This document shows, in pieces, positions 6,759 through 51,306 of a stretch of 64,000 nt of DNA. Numbering within the stretch: the stretch's first letter is position 1; every line of letters starts with the position of its first letter. A model generated the notes under the pieces. That model ran no database searches. It was not told the origin of the DNA and worked only from the letters and a program-made list of their open reading frames with translations. The position numbers and the translations under genes are program-made. The stretch is from Lutibacter sp. (GTDB lineage: Bacteria > Bacteroidota > Bacteroidia > Flavobacteriales > Flavobacteriaceae), in the NCBI RefSeq assembly GCF_016342705.1, contig NZ_JAEINV010000013.1:1-64000 (forward strand). The letters run 5' to 3'.

Positions 6759-8242
6759 TAAATACTGTTTTTAAACAATTAATTAGTTTAGATAAATCTA
6801 AATCACAACCTATATATTTACAAGTCTCCGGACAAATTGTAAATGCTATACAACGCAGCTATTTAACCAAAGGAACAATTCTACCAGGAACCCGTGTATT
6901 AAGTCAATTATTAAAAGTCCATAGAAATACTGCAGTTGCAATTTATGAAGAGCTAGCTTCACAAGGTTGGGTTGAAATTATACCAAATAAAGGGACATTT
7001 GTATTAGAACCAAAGCATTCAACAGTAAAAATAAAAGCAACTTCTCAAAAAATAAATGAAGCATATACCTATGCTAAAACAACAGGGTTTCCTTTTCAAA
7101 AGTCATTTAATTTAATATCAACTGATGAATTTACAAGTGCAAAGTATACTATTAACGATGGTAAACCAGATTTACGCTTACATCCTGTACACCAATTTAC
7201 ACGGTGGTATAGTGCTGCCATGAAACGAAAGACATTGGTGAATAAATGGAACAGAACAGCCGATTTTTTCAACTCTAAATTTCAAACACAGCTATGTAAT
7301 TACTTAAATGCAACAAGAGGTTTTCATATTAATCCTACTAACCTCATTAATACGCGTAGTTCAGAAATGAGTTTATATATAGTATCTCAACTCATAATAA
7401 AACCAAATGACATTGTATTAGTAGGGCAATTAAGTAATTATGCATCTAATATGATTTTTCAACAAACAGGTGCACGTATAAAAACCGTTCCTATTGATGC
7501 TGATGGGTTAGATATTGAGTATATAAAAAAGCATTTTATTAAACATAGTATTAGATGTGTGTATATAAGCGCCCATAGAGATTATCCTACAACGGTAAAA
7601 TTAAGTACAGAACGTCGTTTAGAGCTACTGAAACTTTCTAAAGAGTATGGATTTGCAATTATTGAAGATGATTTCGATTACGATTTTCAGTATGAAGGTT
7701 CAGCAATGTTACCTATGGCAAGTGCAGATGCAAACGGTATGGTAATTTATTTAGGAAAAATTGGGCAGTCTTTATTTCCAAGTTTTCAAACAGGATTTGT
7801 AGTAGCTCCAGAAAATCTGATTTCAGAAGCTAAAAATTATTTAGAATTACTTGACAAACAAGGTGATTTAATTCAAGAACAACTACTCTCAGAATTAATT
7901 AATGAAGGCGAAATATACCGCCTTATGAAAAAGAATATTGTCATATATAAAAGAAGAAGAGATTTTTTATGTAACCTTTTAACAAAATATTTTTTAGAAA
8001 CTGCGCAATGGGAAATTCCTTCAGGAGGATTAGCCATTTGGTTACAATTTCATCCTAAAATATCGATCCTAAAACTAGCAAAAGAAGCCGAAAAAAACGA
8101 TTTACATTTACCAAAAACAATTCTATATCAGGATAAAAATATTTGTGCCATTCGTTTTGGTTTTGGACATTTAAATGAAGAAGAAATAGAACTTGTTATT
8201 AAAAAATTAAAACGAGCTTATAATACGGTGATTTTTAAATAA
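6743..8242 (+). CDS. MocR-type GntR/aminotransferase regulator with degenerate PLP site
   Basis: A 499-residue protein. Residues about 14-90 are a GntR winged helix (QPIYLQVSGQIVNAI, LPGTRVLSQLLKVHRNTAVAIYEEL), and residues about 130-499 have the fold-type I aminotransferase domain of MocR regulators; the IIEDDFDYDFQYEG motif is kept. At the position where MocR proteins have S-x-S-K (the lysine that holds PLP) this protein reads KIGQ: the lysine is Gln342, the usual arginine after it is Gln349, and the phosphate-binding region (RSSEMSL) lacks the usual glycine/serine pattern. It may therefore sense something other than covalently bound PLP. It is divergent from a TonB receptor, its likely target. 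Confidence 0.88.
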   Translation: MKDSPVNTVFKQLISLDKSKSQPIYLQVSGQIVNAIQRSYLTKGTILPGTRVLSQLLKVHRNTAVAIYEELASQGWVEIIPNKGTFVLEPKHSTVKIKATSQKINEAYTYAKTTGFPFQKSFNLISTDEFTSAKYTINDGKPDLRLHPVHQFTRWYSAAMKRKTLVNKWNRTADFFNSKFQTQLCNYLNATRGFHINPTNLINTRSSEMSLYIVSQLIIKPNDIVLVGQLSNYASNMIFQQTGARIKTVPIDADGLDIEYIKKHFIKHSIRCVYISAHRDYPTTVKLSTERRLELLKLSKEYGFAIIEDDFDYDFQYEGSAMLPMASADANGMVIYLGKIGQSLFPSFQTGFVVAPENLISEAKNYLELLDKQGDLIQEQLLSELINEGEIYRLMKKNIVIYKRRRDFLCNLLTKYFLETAQWEIPSGGLAIWLQFHPKISILKLAKEAEKNDLHLPKTILYQDKNICAIRFGFGHLNEEEIELVIKKLKRAYNTVIFK

Positions 8243-47705: not shown

Positions 47706-48002
47706 TTAATCTTCCTCAGTGTCTTCATCTGGAATTTCATCTAAATCTCCATCAGAATCATATACATCATCAAAGTTATCTTCATCTGCATCATAATCTT
47801 CCATTGTTTCTTCCAATTTAAGACTTATTTTTACTAAATACATAGTATCTTCAGTACTTACTTCTACTGCTCTCACGGTTTCACCCTGCGCATTTTTAAA
47901 AGTAATAATATCTTTATAACCATATCCATTCGGATATTTATCAACCAACATATTAAGAATATCTTCAGTTAATTTACTATAATCTACAATAACTCTTTTC
48001 AT
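47706..48002 (-). CDS. Small protein with a strongly acidic C-terminal tail
   Basis: A 98-residue protein of a family I do not recognise. Residues 1-62 look folded (RVIVDYSKLTEDILNMLVDK, YGYKDIITFKNAQGETVRAVEV in two parts); residues about 65-98 are almost only Asp and Glu with a few others. It is the last gene of the speA operon, 11 bases after the deoxyhypusine-synthase-like gene. The tail is similar in style to the extra C-terminal tail of the agmatinase-like protein, and could bind polyamines or a basic partner; this is inference. Confidence 0.75.
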   Translation of the reverse strand: MKRVIVDYSKLTEDILNMLVDKYPNGYGYKDIITFKNAQGETVRAVEVSTEDTMYLVKISLKLEETMEDYDADEDNFDDVYDSDGDLDEIPDEDTEED

Positions 48003-48013
48003 TTAAACTTCAA

Positions 48014-48988
48014 TTACATATTTAATAAATAGGCGAAAATTAATGGCGCAACAATTGTAGCGTCACTTTCAATTATATATTTTGGAGTATCAATATCTAA
48101 TTTACCCCAAGTTATTTTTTCATTTGGAACCGCTCCTGAATATGAACCGTAACTTGTTGTTGAATCTGATATTTGGCAGAAATAACTCCAAAATGGCGTG
48201 TCAGTTCTTTCCATATCTTGATACAACATTGGCACTACGCATATTGGAAAATCTCCAGCAATACCTCCTCCTATTTGAAAAAATCCAATTCCTTCTTTAG
48301 AATTAGCTGTGTACCAATCTGCTAAGAATGTCATATATTCAATTCCAGATTTCATAGTACTAGCTTTTAATTCTCCTTTTAAAACATAAGAAGCAAATAT
48401 ATTACCCATTGTACTATCTTCCCATCCTGGAACAACCATTGGTAAATTAGCTTCTGCAGCAGCAATCATCCAGCTGTTTTTTGGATCAATTTCATGATAT
48501 TGATCTAAAACTCCTGAAAGCAATAATTTATACATAAATTCATGTGGAAAGTAACGCTCACCTTTATCCTCTGCATCTTTCCAAATTTTATAAATATGTT
48601 CTTGTAATCGTCGGAATGCTTCTTCTTCTGGAATACAAGTATCTGTAACTCTATTTAAACCTTTTTCTAATAAATCCCATTCTTCTTTTGGAGTTAAGTC
48701 TCTATAATTTGGAACTCTTTTGTAGTGAGAATGTGCAACCAAATTCATAATGTCTTCTTCAAGATTTGCTCCTGTACATGATATGATTTGAACTTTATCT
48801 TGTCTGATAATTTCTGCAAATATTTTTCCTAATTCAGCAGTACTCATGGCTCCAGCTAATGAAACCAACATTTTTTTACCTGATGCTAATTGATTTTCAT
48901 ACTCTTTTGCTGCATCAACAACTGTTGCGGAGTTAAAATGTAAATAGTATTTTTCAATAAATTGGGAAATTGCTCCTTTTTTACTCAT
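48014..48988 (-). CDS. Deoxyhypusine synthase-like enzyme
   Basis: A 324-residue member of the deoxyhypusine synthase family. The NAD-binding layout (MLVSLAGAMSTAELGKIFAE, ISCTGANLEEDI) and the WGK motif with the catalytic lysine (Lys296) are kept. Bacteria lack the eIF5A substrate, and characterised bacterial members move the aminobutyl part of spermidine to a small amine, for example giving homospermidine. Which acceptor it uses here is unknown. The ATG at 48988 overlaps the stop of the agmatinase-like gene (ATGAGTAA); the longer frame upstream is that gene's tail in another frame. Confidence 0.88.
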   Translation of the reverse strand: MSKKGAISQFIEKYYLHFNSATVVDAAKEYENQLASGKKMLVSLAGAMSTAELGKIFAEIIRQDKVQIISCTGANLEEDIMNLVAHSHYKRVPNYRDLTPKEEWDLLEKGLNRVTDTCIPEEEAFRRLQEHIYKIWKDAEDKGERYFPHEFMYKLLLSGVLDQYHEIDPKNSWMIAAAEANLPMVVPGWEDSTMGNIFASYVLKGELKASTMKSGIEYMTFLADWYTANSKEGIGFFQIGGGIAGDFPICVVPMLYQDMERTDTPFWSYFCQISDSTTSYGSYSGAVPNEKITWGKLDIDTPKYIIESDATIVAPLIFAYLLNM

Positions 48989-49916
48989 AATCTTCGTCTT
49001 GGAATTTTGATGTTTTATTATTTGGCTCTGAAAAACCACTTTCGTTTTCATAATCATCTTCATCTGCATTATCAAACTTATAACTTAACATTTTGTAGTA
49101 AAGTTTTGAAGCTAAATAACTAGAAGCTTTATCATTTTCATTTGGGCAAAGATCTGTTAAATCTAGACCAACAACATTTTTTTCTTTAAATAATTTTTTA
49201 AGAAATTCTAATGTTTCATACCAGAATAAACCTCCTGGTTCTGGATAACTTGTAGATCTAACTAAAGACATATCTAATGCGTTCAAGTTAAATGACAAAA
49301 ACACATTGTTTGTCATTAAATCAATCGCATTTTCCATCCAATAGTCATCACTTACCATTTCATGAGCATAAAAAGTTTTGTCTTCATCAACAATAGTTTT
49401 TTCAATAGCATCCATACTACGAATACCAATTTGAATTAAATTTGTTGTTTGACTAGCATCTGAAAGTGCACAAGCATTATTATAGCTTGATCCGTCAAAT
49501 TCTGCTCTTACATTTGCGTGTGCGCCAATATGAACAACTGTTAAATTATCAAAACATTCATTAAATGCTCTTATTGAACCAATTGAAACAGAGTGTTCAC
49601 CGCCAACAAGTGTTACAAATTTGTTTTTTCTGATATATTCTTTGGTAGTTGCATGAACAGATCTAACCATTTTTTCTGCAGTAGCAGTTTCAATAACATC
49701 ATCTGCTAAAAATATACCGCTTTTATAAACTTCAGAATCAGTTTCTATGTCATACAATTCCATATTTTCTGAAGCATCTAAAAAGGCTTTTGGACCATTC
49801 ACTGCTCCTTTTTCCCAATTTACTGTTCCATCAAAAGGAACAGGAATTAATACTACTTTAGAAGTATCAATTTTAGCATATTTTTCAGGTATTCCTGCGT
49901 AAGTTCTTTTATTCAT
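48981..49916 (-). CDS. Agmatinase/ureohydrolase homologue lacking most metal ligands
   Basis: A 311-residue protein of the arginase/agmatinase family with normal length and GGEHS (His108) intact. The usual HxDAHxD motif reads HIGAHAN, so two Mn-binding Asp residues are Gly131 and Asn135, and the usual DxD motif reads NLN (Asn210, Asn212). The glutamate usually found near GxDxVE is Asp255. Only two histidine ligands of six remain, so no normal ureohydrolase activity is expected. Residues about 282-311 form an acidic tail absent from the normal enzyme. It overlaps speA by 8 bases and the downstream gene by 8 bases, so it is translated as part of the operon and is not decayed: the frame is fully open. 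Confidence 0.88.
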   Translation of the reverse strand: MNKRTYAGIPEKYAKIDTSKVVLIPVPFDGTVNWEKGAVNGPKAFLDASENMELYDIETDSEVYKSGIFLADDVIETATAEKMVRSVHATTKEYIRKNKFVTLVGGEHSVSIGSIRAFNECFDNLTVVHIGAHANVRAEFDGSSYNNACALSDASQTTNLIQIGIRSMDAIEKTIVDEDKTFYAHEMVSDDYWMENAIDLMTNNVFLSFNLNALDMSLVRSTSYPEPGGLFWYETLEFLKKLFKEKNVVGLDLTDLCPNENDKASSYLASKLYYKMLSYKFDNADEDDYENESGFSEPNNKTSKFQDEDYE

Positions 49917-51306
49917 AACCTAATATCTTTAAAAAGTCGCTTGCTGTTTGTTTTTCTTTAAATACTTTATATTCTAGTTTTCCTTCGTTATTCTTTGATA
50001 TAATCACATGTTTTGGTTGTGGAATTAAACAGTGTTGTAAACCTCCATAACCTCCTATTGATTCTTGATATGCACCCGTATTAAAAAAGCCTAAATACAA
50101 TGGTTTTTCTTCTTTGTATGCTGGTAAATAAATAGCATTTATATGTTGTTCGGAGTTGTAATAATCATCACTATCACAGGTTAAACCTCCTAATAGAACT
50201 CTTTCATAAACATCATTCCAACGATTTAAAGGTAATAAAATAAATCGTTTATTTATAGCCCAACTATCTGGTAATGTTGTAATAAACGAAGAATTTATCA
50301 TATTCCATCGTTCTCTATCGTTTTGTTTCTTTTGATATAATACTTTATAAATTGCACCTCCACTTTCACCTACAGTATAACTACCAAACTCAGTAAAAAT
50401 ATGTGGCACTTGCACTTCAGCATCTTCACAAGCATCTTTAATTTGGCATATAATTTCATCCACCATATAGTCATAATCGTAATTAAAGCCTAACGAGTTT
50501 TTTATTGGAAAACCACCACCTATATTTAAACTGTCTAATGATGGGCAAATACGTTTTAAACTAATGTAAACTTTCATGCATTTACTTAATTCATTCCAAT
50601 AATAGGCATTATCTTTAATACCTGTATTAATGAAGAAATGCAACATTTTAAGGTTTACCTTATGATTATCTTTTACTTCTCGTCTGTAAAAGTCTACAAT
50701 GTTTTTATAACCAATTCCAAGACGTGATGTATAAAACTCAAATTTTGGCTCTTCTTCAGATGCTATCCTAATTCCAATATTAATTTTTTTCTTTACACCT
50801 TCAGTTAGTAAACCAATTTCCTCATAATTATCAATAATTGGAATGCAATTTTTATGTCCACTATTAATTAGATTTTGAATTTTAGTAACGTATTCTTCCC
50901 GTTTAAAACCATTACAAATAATATAGTTTTTATCGGTAATTTTACCATCTCTTTTAAGATTTTCAATAATATCAATATCAACTGCCGAAGAAGTTTCAAT
51001 ATGTATATCATTTTTTAAGGCCTCATCTAAAATGTGTTTAAAATGAGAACTTTTTGTGCAATAACAGTAGTTATATTTAGCTTTATATTTATGCTTTTTC
51101 ATTGCTTTTTCAAACATTGATTTAGCATTTTGAATATTCTCACTAATTTTTGGTAAGTATGTAAATTTTAATGGGGTTCCAAATTCTTCTGCCAACTTCA
51201 TGGTATCAATATCATGAAAATGTAAATTTTTGTTGGAATCTATTTTAAATTCTTCTTGAGGAAAATCGAAAGTTTGATTTATTAAATCAATATATTTTGT
51301 ATTCAT
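49909..51306 (-). CDS. speA: Biosynthetic arginine decarboxylase (short form)
   Basis: A 465-residue PLP enzyme of the alanine-racemase fold that makes agmatine from arginine. The PLP lysine is Lys85 in CYCTKSSHF; the phosphate-binding GGGFP, TEFGSYTVGESG and the catalytic CDSDD motif are present. It is shorter than the 630-residue proteobacterial SpeA, as normal for Bacteroidota. It is the first gene of the polyamine operon, with a leader region of about 270 bases. Confidence 0.93.
   Translation of the reverse strand: MNTKYIDLINQTFDFPQEEFKIDSNKNLHFHDIDTMKLAEEFGTPLKFTYLPKISENIQNAKSMFEKAMKKHKYKAKYNYCYCTKSSHFKHILDEALKNDIHIETSSAVDIDIIENLKRDGKITDKNYIICNGFKREEYVTKIQNLINSGHKNCIPIIDNYEEIGLLTEGVKKKINIGIRIASEEEPKFEFYTSRLGIGYKNIVDFYRREVKDNHKVNLKMLHFFINTGIKDNAYYWNELSKCMKVYISLKRICPSLDSLNIGGGFPIKNSLGFNYDYDYMVDEIICQIKDACEDAEVQVPHIFTEFGSYTVGESGGAIYKVLYQKKQNDRERWNMINSSFITTLPDSWAINKRFILLPLNRWNDVYERVLLGGLTCDSDDYYNSEQHINAIYLPAYKEEKPLYLGFFNTGAYQESIGGYGGLQHCLIPQPKHVIISKNNEGKLEYKVFKEKQTASDFLKILGYE

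Follow-up and report, generated by a model that had tools for sequence, protein, structure and literature searches.

An operon agmatinase orthologue of Lutibacter has lost its aspartate metal ligands and remains under purifying selection

Organization of the polyamine locus

We analyzed a stretch of 64,000 nucleotides (the window) from Lutibacter sp. (Flavobacteriaceae; RefSeq assembly GCF_016342705.1, contig NZ_JAEINV010000013.1, positions 1 to 64,000). The minus strand of the window carries an operon in which an arginine decarboxylase-like gene is followed by an agmatinase-like gene and then by a deoxyhypusine synthase (DHS)-like gene (Table 1). The decarboxylase-like protein, which was matched in 30 of the 38 genus genomes, has the biosynthetic arginine decarboxylase models as its nearest NCBIfam models, with scores below the cut-offs. 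For the DHS-like protein, the best NCBIfam model was the homospermidine biosynthesis protein PRK00770, again below the cut-off, and by this nearest model the protein is placed near the SpeY/homospermidine synthase type. According to PMC9992855, DHS homologues of the SpeY kind convert putrescine to homospermidine.

The agmatinase-like reading frame contains no internal stop codon. An earlier, sequence-only reading of this DNA had described the frame as open and as overlapping each neighbour by eight bases, and the coordinates agree with that description; the overlap with the DHS-like gene assumes that this gene starts at the ATG at 48988, the mechanical ORF start being a TTG at 49075. Eleven bases beyond the 3' end of the DHS-like gene, likewise on the minus strand, a gene (47706-48002) encodes a protein of 98 aa whose C-terminus is strongly acidic; searches of Pfam and NCBIfam gave no match for this protein, and its gene may be part of the polyamine operon.

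Table 1. Features of the polyamine locus, in coordinates of the window
Feature	Position	Strand	Basis
Arginine decarboxylase-like protein, PLP-dependent, 465 aa, upstream gene	49909..51306	-	Pfam PF02784
Overlap of 8 bases, decarboxylase stop and agmatinase start	49909..49916	-	ORF coordinates
Agmatinase-like predicted pseudoenzyme, SpeB orthologue, 311 aa	48981..49916	-	Pfam, TIGR01230, alignment
GGEHS, first metal His H108 kept	49590..49604	-	alignment
HIGAHAN (129-135): D131G, D135N; H133 kept	49512..49532	-	alignment
H147N, equivalent of SpeB H163	49476..49478	-	alignment
NLN (210-212): D210N, D212N	49281..49289	-	alignment
G223S and T224Y; T224 equivalent to SpeB T244; aromatic (Phe) in G020 too	49245..49250	-	
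E255D, equivalent of SpeB E274	49152..49154	-	alignment
Acidic C-terminal tail (282-311), low-confidence from 285 on, conserved Lys-Phe at 304-305	48984..49073	-	
Overlap of 8 bases, agmatinase stop and DHS-like start	48981..48988	-	ORF coordinates
Deoxyhypusine synthase (DHS)-like protein, 324 aa, downstream gene	48014..48988	-	Pfam PF01916

Loss of the active site in a conserved fold

The agmatinase-like protein matches Pfam Arginase with an E-value of 1.3e-47, this being the only Pfam domain found, and passes the cut-off of the curated agmatinase model TIGR01230 (179.3 vs 174.3 bits). We assigned active-site positions by alignment to two agmatinases of known structure, 3lhl and 3pzl. In E. 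coli SpeB, the metal ligands are H126, H151, D149, D153, D230 and D232, and residues H163, T244 and E274 have been proposed as guanidinium contacts (PMC8049259). Seven of these nine active-site residues are replaced in the Lutibacter protein (D131G, D135N, D210N, D212N, H147N, T224Y and E255D). All four aspartate ligands are gone and the two histidines (H108 and H133) are retained, i.e., no carboxylate is present at any of the six ligand positions, and the His/Thr/Glu set of guanidinium contacts now reads N147, Y224 and D255. Six of the seven replacements change the type of side chain, the remaining one, E255D, being to a shorter acid.

The sequence-only reading had placed GGEHS, HIGAHAN, NLN and D255 on metal or catalytic positions and had concluded that four of six metal ligands are lost while the fold is kept; the alignment to 3lhl and 3pzl confirms both statements. 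Its list of losses was right for the ligands and for E255D, and overlooked H147N and T224Y. It had also expected no hydrolysis of agmatine and, judging from the residues present, such activity is indeed very unlikely: the protein is very probably dead as an agmatinase. It should be noted, as a warning, that the curated agmatinase model still labels this protein an agmatinase.

An AlphaFold2 model of the protein (pLDDT 81.5, pTM 0.84) has the ureohydrolase fold, with close structural matches to E. coli agmatinase 7lol (Z 31.9, rmsd 2.6, 274 residues aligned), to 3pzl (Z 33.3, rmsd 2.5, 278 aligned) and to metformin hydrolase 8ryi (Z 33.4, rmsd 2.2, 280 aligned; tied for top). An intact Lutibacter control, folded with the same sequence set, gave a pLDDT of 83.3 and a pTM of 0.86. 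The C-terminal tail is of low confidence in the altered and intact models alike; pLDDT falls below 50 at residues 145-148 in the altered protein only, a difference from the control that is too small to rely on. Among the structure-comparison matches was the H141N variant of rat arginase, the structure of which is solved; we take H141 to be the same histidine as SpeB H163.

Distribution of the altered protein among relatives

The protein of the closest named relative, Lutibacter maritimus DSM 24450, is 94% identical, and the same seven changes are found in this isolate and in a MAG of a third Lutibacter species. Read error is excluded because both of these carry the same residues, which are thus identical in three species including an isolate. 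The sequence-only reading was to be given up if relatives proved intact and the codons proved to be read errors; although the majority of relatives are intact, three species have the changes in common, and that objection fails.

We aligned 111 rows, duplicates between collections included, most of them being the best 80 of at least 581 matches. The full ligand set at the tabulated positions was found in 102 rows, the pattern of the window in six (three species), D135N alone in two (one species, G034), and D131G, D135N and D212A in one (G020). Counted as distinct sequences, there are 97: 92 intact, three fully altered, G020 and G034. Another 80 agmatinase loci from the family and order were all intact at ten positions; these loci were hand-picked, with 68 taken from the higher-scoring matches listed in a search of the family that matched 254 of 397 genomes and 11 of the other 12 from other families of the order, and some possibly represent the same species as aligned rows.

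The altered agmatinase was found only in Lutibacter, in five of the 28 genus genomes in which the gene was read; the other 23 are intact. Among the ten remaining genus genomes, the gene of G029 is divided between two contigs, G027 has a weak match and eight have no match. Intact orthologues from Lutibacter and other Flavobacteriaceae show about 61-74% identity to the agmatinase-like protein, usually share its operon and the tail motif considered below, and, unlike the altered protein, possess the full HDHDDD ligand set together with H147, T224 and E255.

Three further observations concern individual genomes. In G034 (L009, L037), which carries the AguA and AguB genes described below, D135N is the sole change at the nine active-site positions and may represent an early stage on the same route. 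In two Lutibacter genomes, G007 and G012 (99% complete), none of the three operon proteins (decarboxylase, agmatinase and DHS-like) was matched, so the pathway is apparently dispensable in some species. Two 0.6-Mb genomes of the order (G086 and G095; L173 and L177) have a ligand-intact agmatinase and a non-adjacent DHS-like gene, and the match in G086 spans one TAA.

A likely second loss in G020

We defined 138 near-invariant columns, with conservation of at least 98.5% in the intact sequences, and found 17-19 of them changed in the three altered species and 15 in G020, compared to 0-2 in the intact Lutibacter rows listed. Residues common to the three altered species and absent from 25 comparison genomes numbered 21 in the agmatinase, whereas the DHS-like protein and the decarboxylase have a single such residue each (for the decarboxylase, 24 comparison genomes, G021 being left out).

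Genome G020 has K40N, D131G and D135N like the three-species clade. It has also lost H147, D212, P216 and T224, differently replaced (by Arg, Ala, His and Phe, respectively), and has kept D210 and E255. Position 224 is aromatic in both lineages, Tyr in the three-species clade and Phe in G020. The best trees separate G020 from the clade, the closest relatives of which are intact species, and the AU test rejects a grouping of G020 with the clade when the decarboxylase and DHS-like genes are taken together (p 0.043 for DNA and 0.012 for protein). The same grouping was not rejected for the agmatinase gene (0.48; 0.43 without the nine changed codons), for rpoB (0.21), for rpoB with the decarboxylase and DHS-like genes (0.29), and for rpoB plus rpoC (0.38 for DNA and 0.36 for protein); G021 was left out of the later trees using the decarboxylase gene. 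Because the trees separate the two lineages and the AU test rejects their grouping for one gene set only, the loss of the active site in G020 is likely, short of proof, to be independent of that in the three-species clade.

The composition of the altered pocket bears on the idea that the protein became a metal-free sensor of agmatine (or of arginine or a polyamine), in which the pocket would bind the ligand and signal to a partner without hydrolysis. Such a sensor would fit the retention of both histidines, the polar character of the pocket (Gly, Asn and Asp), the sameness of most new residues in the three species, and the position of the gene between presumed agmatine-making and agmatine- or putrescine-using genes. 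However, the proposed guanidinium contacts (SpeB H163, T244 and E274) are all replaced, the site is probably filled by the Tyr or Phe that stands in place of Thr, and Arginase remains as the single Pfam domain, so that we regard a sensor as unlikely.

Selection on the altered protein

Selection was assessed in 11 genomes with a codon branch model implemented in our own Python code rather than an established program; in this model, deep branches have dS above 1 and the stem omega reaches its bound. For the agmatinase, omega was 0.024 in the altered clade, 0.041 in the background and 0.056 on the G020 branch. The neighbouring genes showed the same proportional drop between background and clade, from 0.024 to 0.014 for the decarboxylase and from 0.018 to 0.011 for the DHS-like gene. 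An omega of 1 within the altered clade is rejected (2dlnL about 498, i.e., about 249 log units). Because the clade omega is below the background in all three genes (2dlnL 6.1, 7.1 and 3.2), we read the low clade value as selection that is no weaker, and not as stronger selection; part of the decrease may be a clade-wide or saturation effect. On the stem branch, the omega of the agmatinase differs from the background (2dlnL 8.6) and does not differ from 1, and this acceleration may be either relaxation or adaptation. The DHS-like gene, with its one clade-specific residue, is also slightly faster on the stem (2dlnL 5.6).

Pairwise comparisons were made for hand-chosen pairs and not for all pairs. 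Within the clade, the cleanest pair, G000-G035, gave an omega of 0.053 at a dS of 0.57, and the two pairs with G014 gave 0.080 each at a dS of about 1.3; seven pairs outside the clade (dS 0.55-0.89), one of which includes the D135N genome G034, gave 0.044-0.140. Agmatinase omega in pairs crossing the stem or involving G020 was 0.133-0.167, higher values that are expected because of the accelerated branch. Eight positions are fixed in the three species, and four of these vary silently: Gly131 is encoded by GGC, GGA or GGT, and the codons of N210, N212 and Y224 differ at the third base. The other four (N135, N147, S223 and D255) have one codon each in the three altered species.

A pseudogene is expected to lose purifying selection; instead, an omega of 1 is rejected and the pairwise values in the clade are 0.053-0.080. 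The codon pattern points to a protein that has changed and is still important rather than to a decaying one, and the sequence-only statement that this is not a decaying gene is borne out both by a clade omega within the range of intact agmatinases and by the silent codon changes. That the altered agmatinase is still functional as a protein is, in our estimate, very likely. We also considered a dispensable relic, the frame of which would be kept only for translation of the overlapping DHS-like gene. The 8-base overlaps on both sides and the presence of AguAB are consistent with a relic, as is the larger amino-acid change across the stem (71.1% identity for G000-G013) than between intact lineages (80.4% for G013-G026). 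Coupling, however, would protect the frame and not the residues, whereas 250 of the 311 residues are identical in all three altered species and the clade omega is far below 1; a pseudogene or relic kept by its overlaps is therefore largely refuted by the codon evidence, and we consider it very improbable.

A burst of change focused on the pocket and followed by strong constraint, with two histidines remaining, could also indicate a new enzyme, i.e., a remodelled pocket with other chemistry or with one- or no-metal hydrolysis, perhaps of another guanidino compound. This appears improbable in view of six ligand positions without a carboxylate and of G020, in which the replacements differ (Arg147, Ala212 and Phe224) and D210 and E255 are kept. 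Because G020 uses different replacements, loss fits better than one shared new chemistry.

AguA and AguB as a candidate bypass

A second agmatinase or an agmatine deiminase elsewhere in the genome had been suggested as a check on the sequence-only reading, and the genome of the window indeed has adjoining AguA- and AguB-like genes (L133:5943-6983 and 6986-7873). The nearest model of the AguA-like protein is agmatine deiminase (240.9 of 381.8 bits) and that of the AguB-like protein is N-carbamoylputrescine amidase (329.5 of 410.25 bits), both scores being below the equivalog cut-offs. The deiminase together with N-carbamoylputrescine amidohydrolase constitutes one of three known routes from agmatine to putrescine (PMC12283126).

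Strong matches to AguA and to AguB occur in the same 13 of the 38 genus genomes: all five genomes with an altered agmatinase, seven of the 23 with an intact one, and G029, in which the agmatinase is split over contigs. The association between AguAB and the altered agmatinase has a Fisher p of 0.008, a value that ignores phylogeny and rests on about three independent events, so that it lends modest support. Weaker PF04371 matches (E about 1e-24 to 1e-32) in G002, G012, G023 and a second copy in G034, which form another subfamily by score, were not counted as AguA, and one weak match in G017 (32% identity) was not counted as AguB. Because seven AguAB genomes keep an intact agmatinase, AguAB alone does not bring about the loss of agmatinase; AguAB is probably a permissive bypass.

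The presence of AguAB also bears on the substrate of the DHS-like enzyme. If this enzyme coupled agmatine directly, the altered Lutibacter would have dropped the ureohydrolase step, guanidinated homospermidine would be the product and the dead protein would be a leftover or a chaperone of the DHS-like enzyme. There is a precedent in the caldomycin synthase of Thermus, where agmatine homocoupling is followed by a ureohydrolase (PMC10981699). For the Lutibacter protein, however, the homospermidine model scores higher (111.8 vs 88.6 bits, both far below cut-off), and AguAB, which would divert agmatine to putrescine, is found in every altered genome; direct coupling is accordingly the reading to which we give least credence.

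The C-terminal tail and possible partners

The tail comparison covered 158 distinct agmatinase genes that contain a YKF anchor; 11 genes without this anchor or without a stop within the stretch were left out. The tail is 25-39 residues long in 156 of them, and 144 of the 158 have Lys-Phe in the last 14 residues, compared to a mean of 11.8 and a maximum of 21 after shuffling. Lys-Phe is kept in all five altered species; it is missing in 10 of 11 loci from other families of the order, some of which have the adjacent genes, and in G060 of the same family. It is unlikely that the motif is merely the start region of the DHS-like gene, as it persists without an adjacent DHS-like gene: Lys-Phe is present in six loci with a non-adjacent DHS-like gene (L046, L056, L077, L081, L088 and L095) and in 45 of the 48 tails that a simple rule classed as having no overlapping ATG. 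The Phe codon is TTT in 96 cases and TTC in 48; because Lys is encoded by AAA in 140 of 144, a constraint at the DNA level is also possible. We regard the Lys-Phe tail as a possible docking element.

In a set of 100 genomes that includes the genome of the window, a close agmatinase orthologue (E-value of 1e-74 or better) is present in 53, and every one of these has a DHS-like gene. The DHS-like protein does not always need agmatinase, because four of the 58 DHS-like-positive genomes have no close orthologue; in a fifth, G027, the DHS-like gene is a fragment and the agmatinase match is weak. A search of the genome of the window for PF00491 proteins at E-values up to 1 found two only, the agmatinase-like protein and one other that reads Q/D/K/D/D/S at the ligand positions, and thus neither a hidden second agmatinase nor an active partner from the arginase family.

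This second arginase-family protein (386 aa, formimidoylglutamase-like; G000:C10, L134:4998-6158, minus strand) is encoded between topA and a gldK/gldL-like pair, and has relatives in 88 of the 100 genomes, mostly of the same genus and order. We inspected 50 loci (30 from Lutibacter and 20 hand-picked, the most distant rows, near 30% identity, being uncertain). The six ligands are complete in none of the 50, Q/D/K/D/D/S is the commonest combination (28 of 50), and a gldK-like neighbour and a topA neighbour are each found in 47. This protein appears to be a pseudo-ureohydrolase, conserved over a deep evolutionary range, that is encoded next to genes for type IX secretion.

Discussion

In PMC11271267, MetCb of the Ni-dependent metformin hydrolase MetCaCb is described as a subunit of the ureohydrolase family that has lost the metal ligands, and metal-free ureohydrolases, whose functions had been elusive, are cited from eukaryotes and prokaryotes. 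The Lutibacter protein resembles MetCb in the loss of ligands; MetCb persists as a protein binder, a role that is putative here. MetCb, however, is a paralogue beside the active MetCa, whereas the Lutibacter protein is one orthologue in a genome where we found no active family member.

Other dead proteins of these families are known from the literature. Hai et al. 2015 reportedly described an arginase-like protein of Trypanosoma brucei without a Mn cluster; that protein likewise has no metal cluster and is eukaryotic, and the Lutibacter case adds the surrounding operon, evidence of selection at the codon level and a pathway that may serve as a bypass. Fusobacteriaceae are said to have an arginase-family fused domain without a metal centre, with loss of function; that is a domain of a fusion, whereas the Lutibacter protein is a free agmatinase orthologue. 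The deoxyhypusine synthase pseudoenzyme paralogues of trypanosomatids are reported to be dead proteins with an activator role, which is again a case of a dead polyamine-pathway protein being kept, but as a paralogue of its own active enzyme. A search of open-licence papers found none on Lutibacter agmatinase or on such a single-copy pseudo-agmatinase. Ureohydrolase pseudoenzymes are already known; a single-copy operon orthologue without an active partner looks new.

On balance, we lean toward the following explanation: the single-copy operon agmatinase turned into a pseudoenzyme in one Lutibacter branch, with AguAB as the bypass and a pre-existing non-catalytic role retained. This conversion would have proceeded in three steps: (i) in an ancestor with AguA and AguB, agmatine would have been converted to N-carbamoylputrescine and then to putrescine, and hydrolysis by agmatinase would have become dispensable; (ii) the metal site would have been dismantled on one branch, with the Asp cluster replaced by Gly and Asn, which may remove charge repulsion in a metal-free fold, and with the guanidinium-binding His, Thr and Glu also replaced, Thr by a bulky aromatic residue that would alter binding; (iii) the new protein then came under the strong purifying selection seen in the codon analysis. 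The selected trait would most likely be a non-catalytic function that the intact agmatinase already had, i.e., to hold or regulate a partner, for which the flanking decarboxylase or DHS-like synthase is the most likely candidate, possibly via the Lys-Phe tail. A role as partner or scaffold in the polyamine operon seems to us to have somewhat less than an even chance. The proposal of the sequence-only reading, a structural partner or a sensor, is compatible with these results, which support that reading in part. More tentatively, flavobacterial agmatinases in general could be bifunctional and, besides hydrolysing agmatine, organize or regulate the decarboxylase/DHS-like polyamine machinery, with the Lys-Phe tail as docking element; after takeover of the chemistry by AguAB, selection would then repeatedly strip the metal site while the second function is kept.

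The best-described dead ureohydrolase of bacteria, MetCb, is a duplicate, whereas here a single-copy enzyme of a core pathway has apparently been converted within one genus. Species with intact, single-mutant, partially lost and fully lost sites exist side by side, and AguAB is likely to be permissive, which makes the roles of the enzyme other than its reaction addressable. If flavobacterial agmatinases are indeed bifunctional, Lutibacter would represent a natural separation-of-function series, from intact through D135N only and partial loss to full loss.
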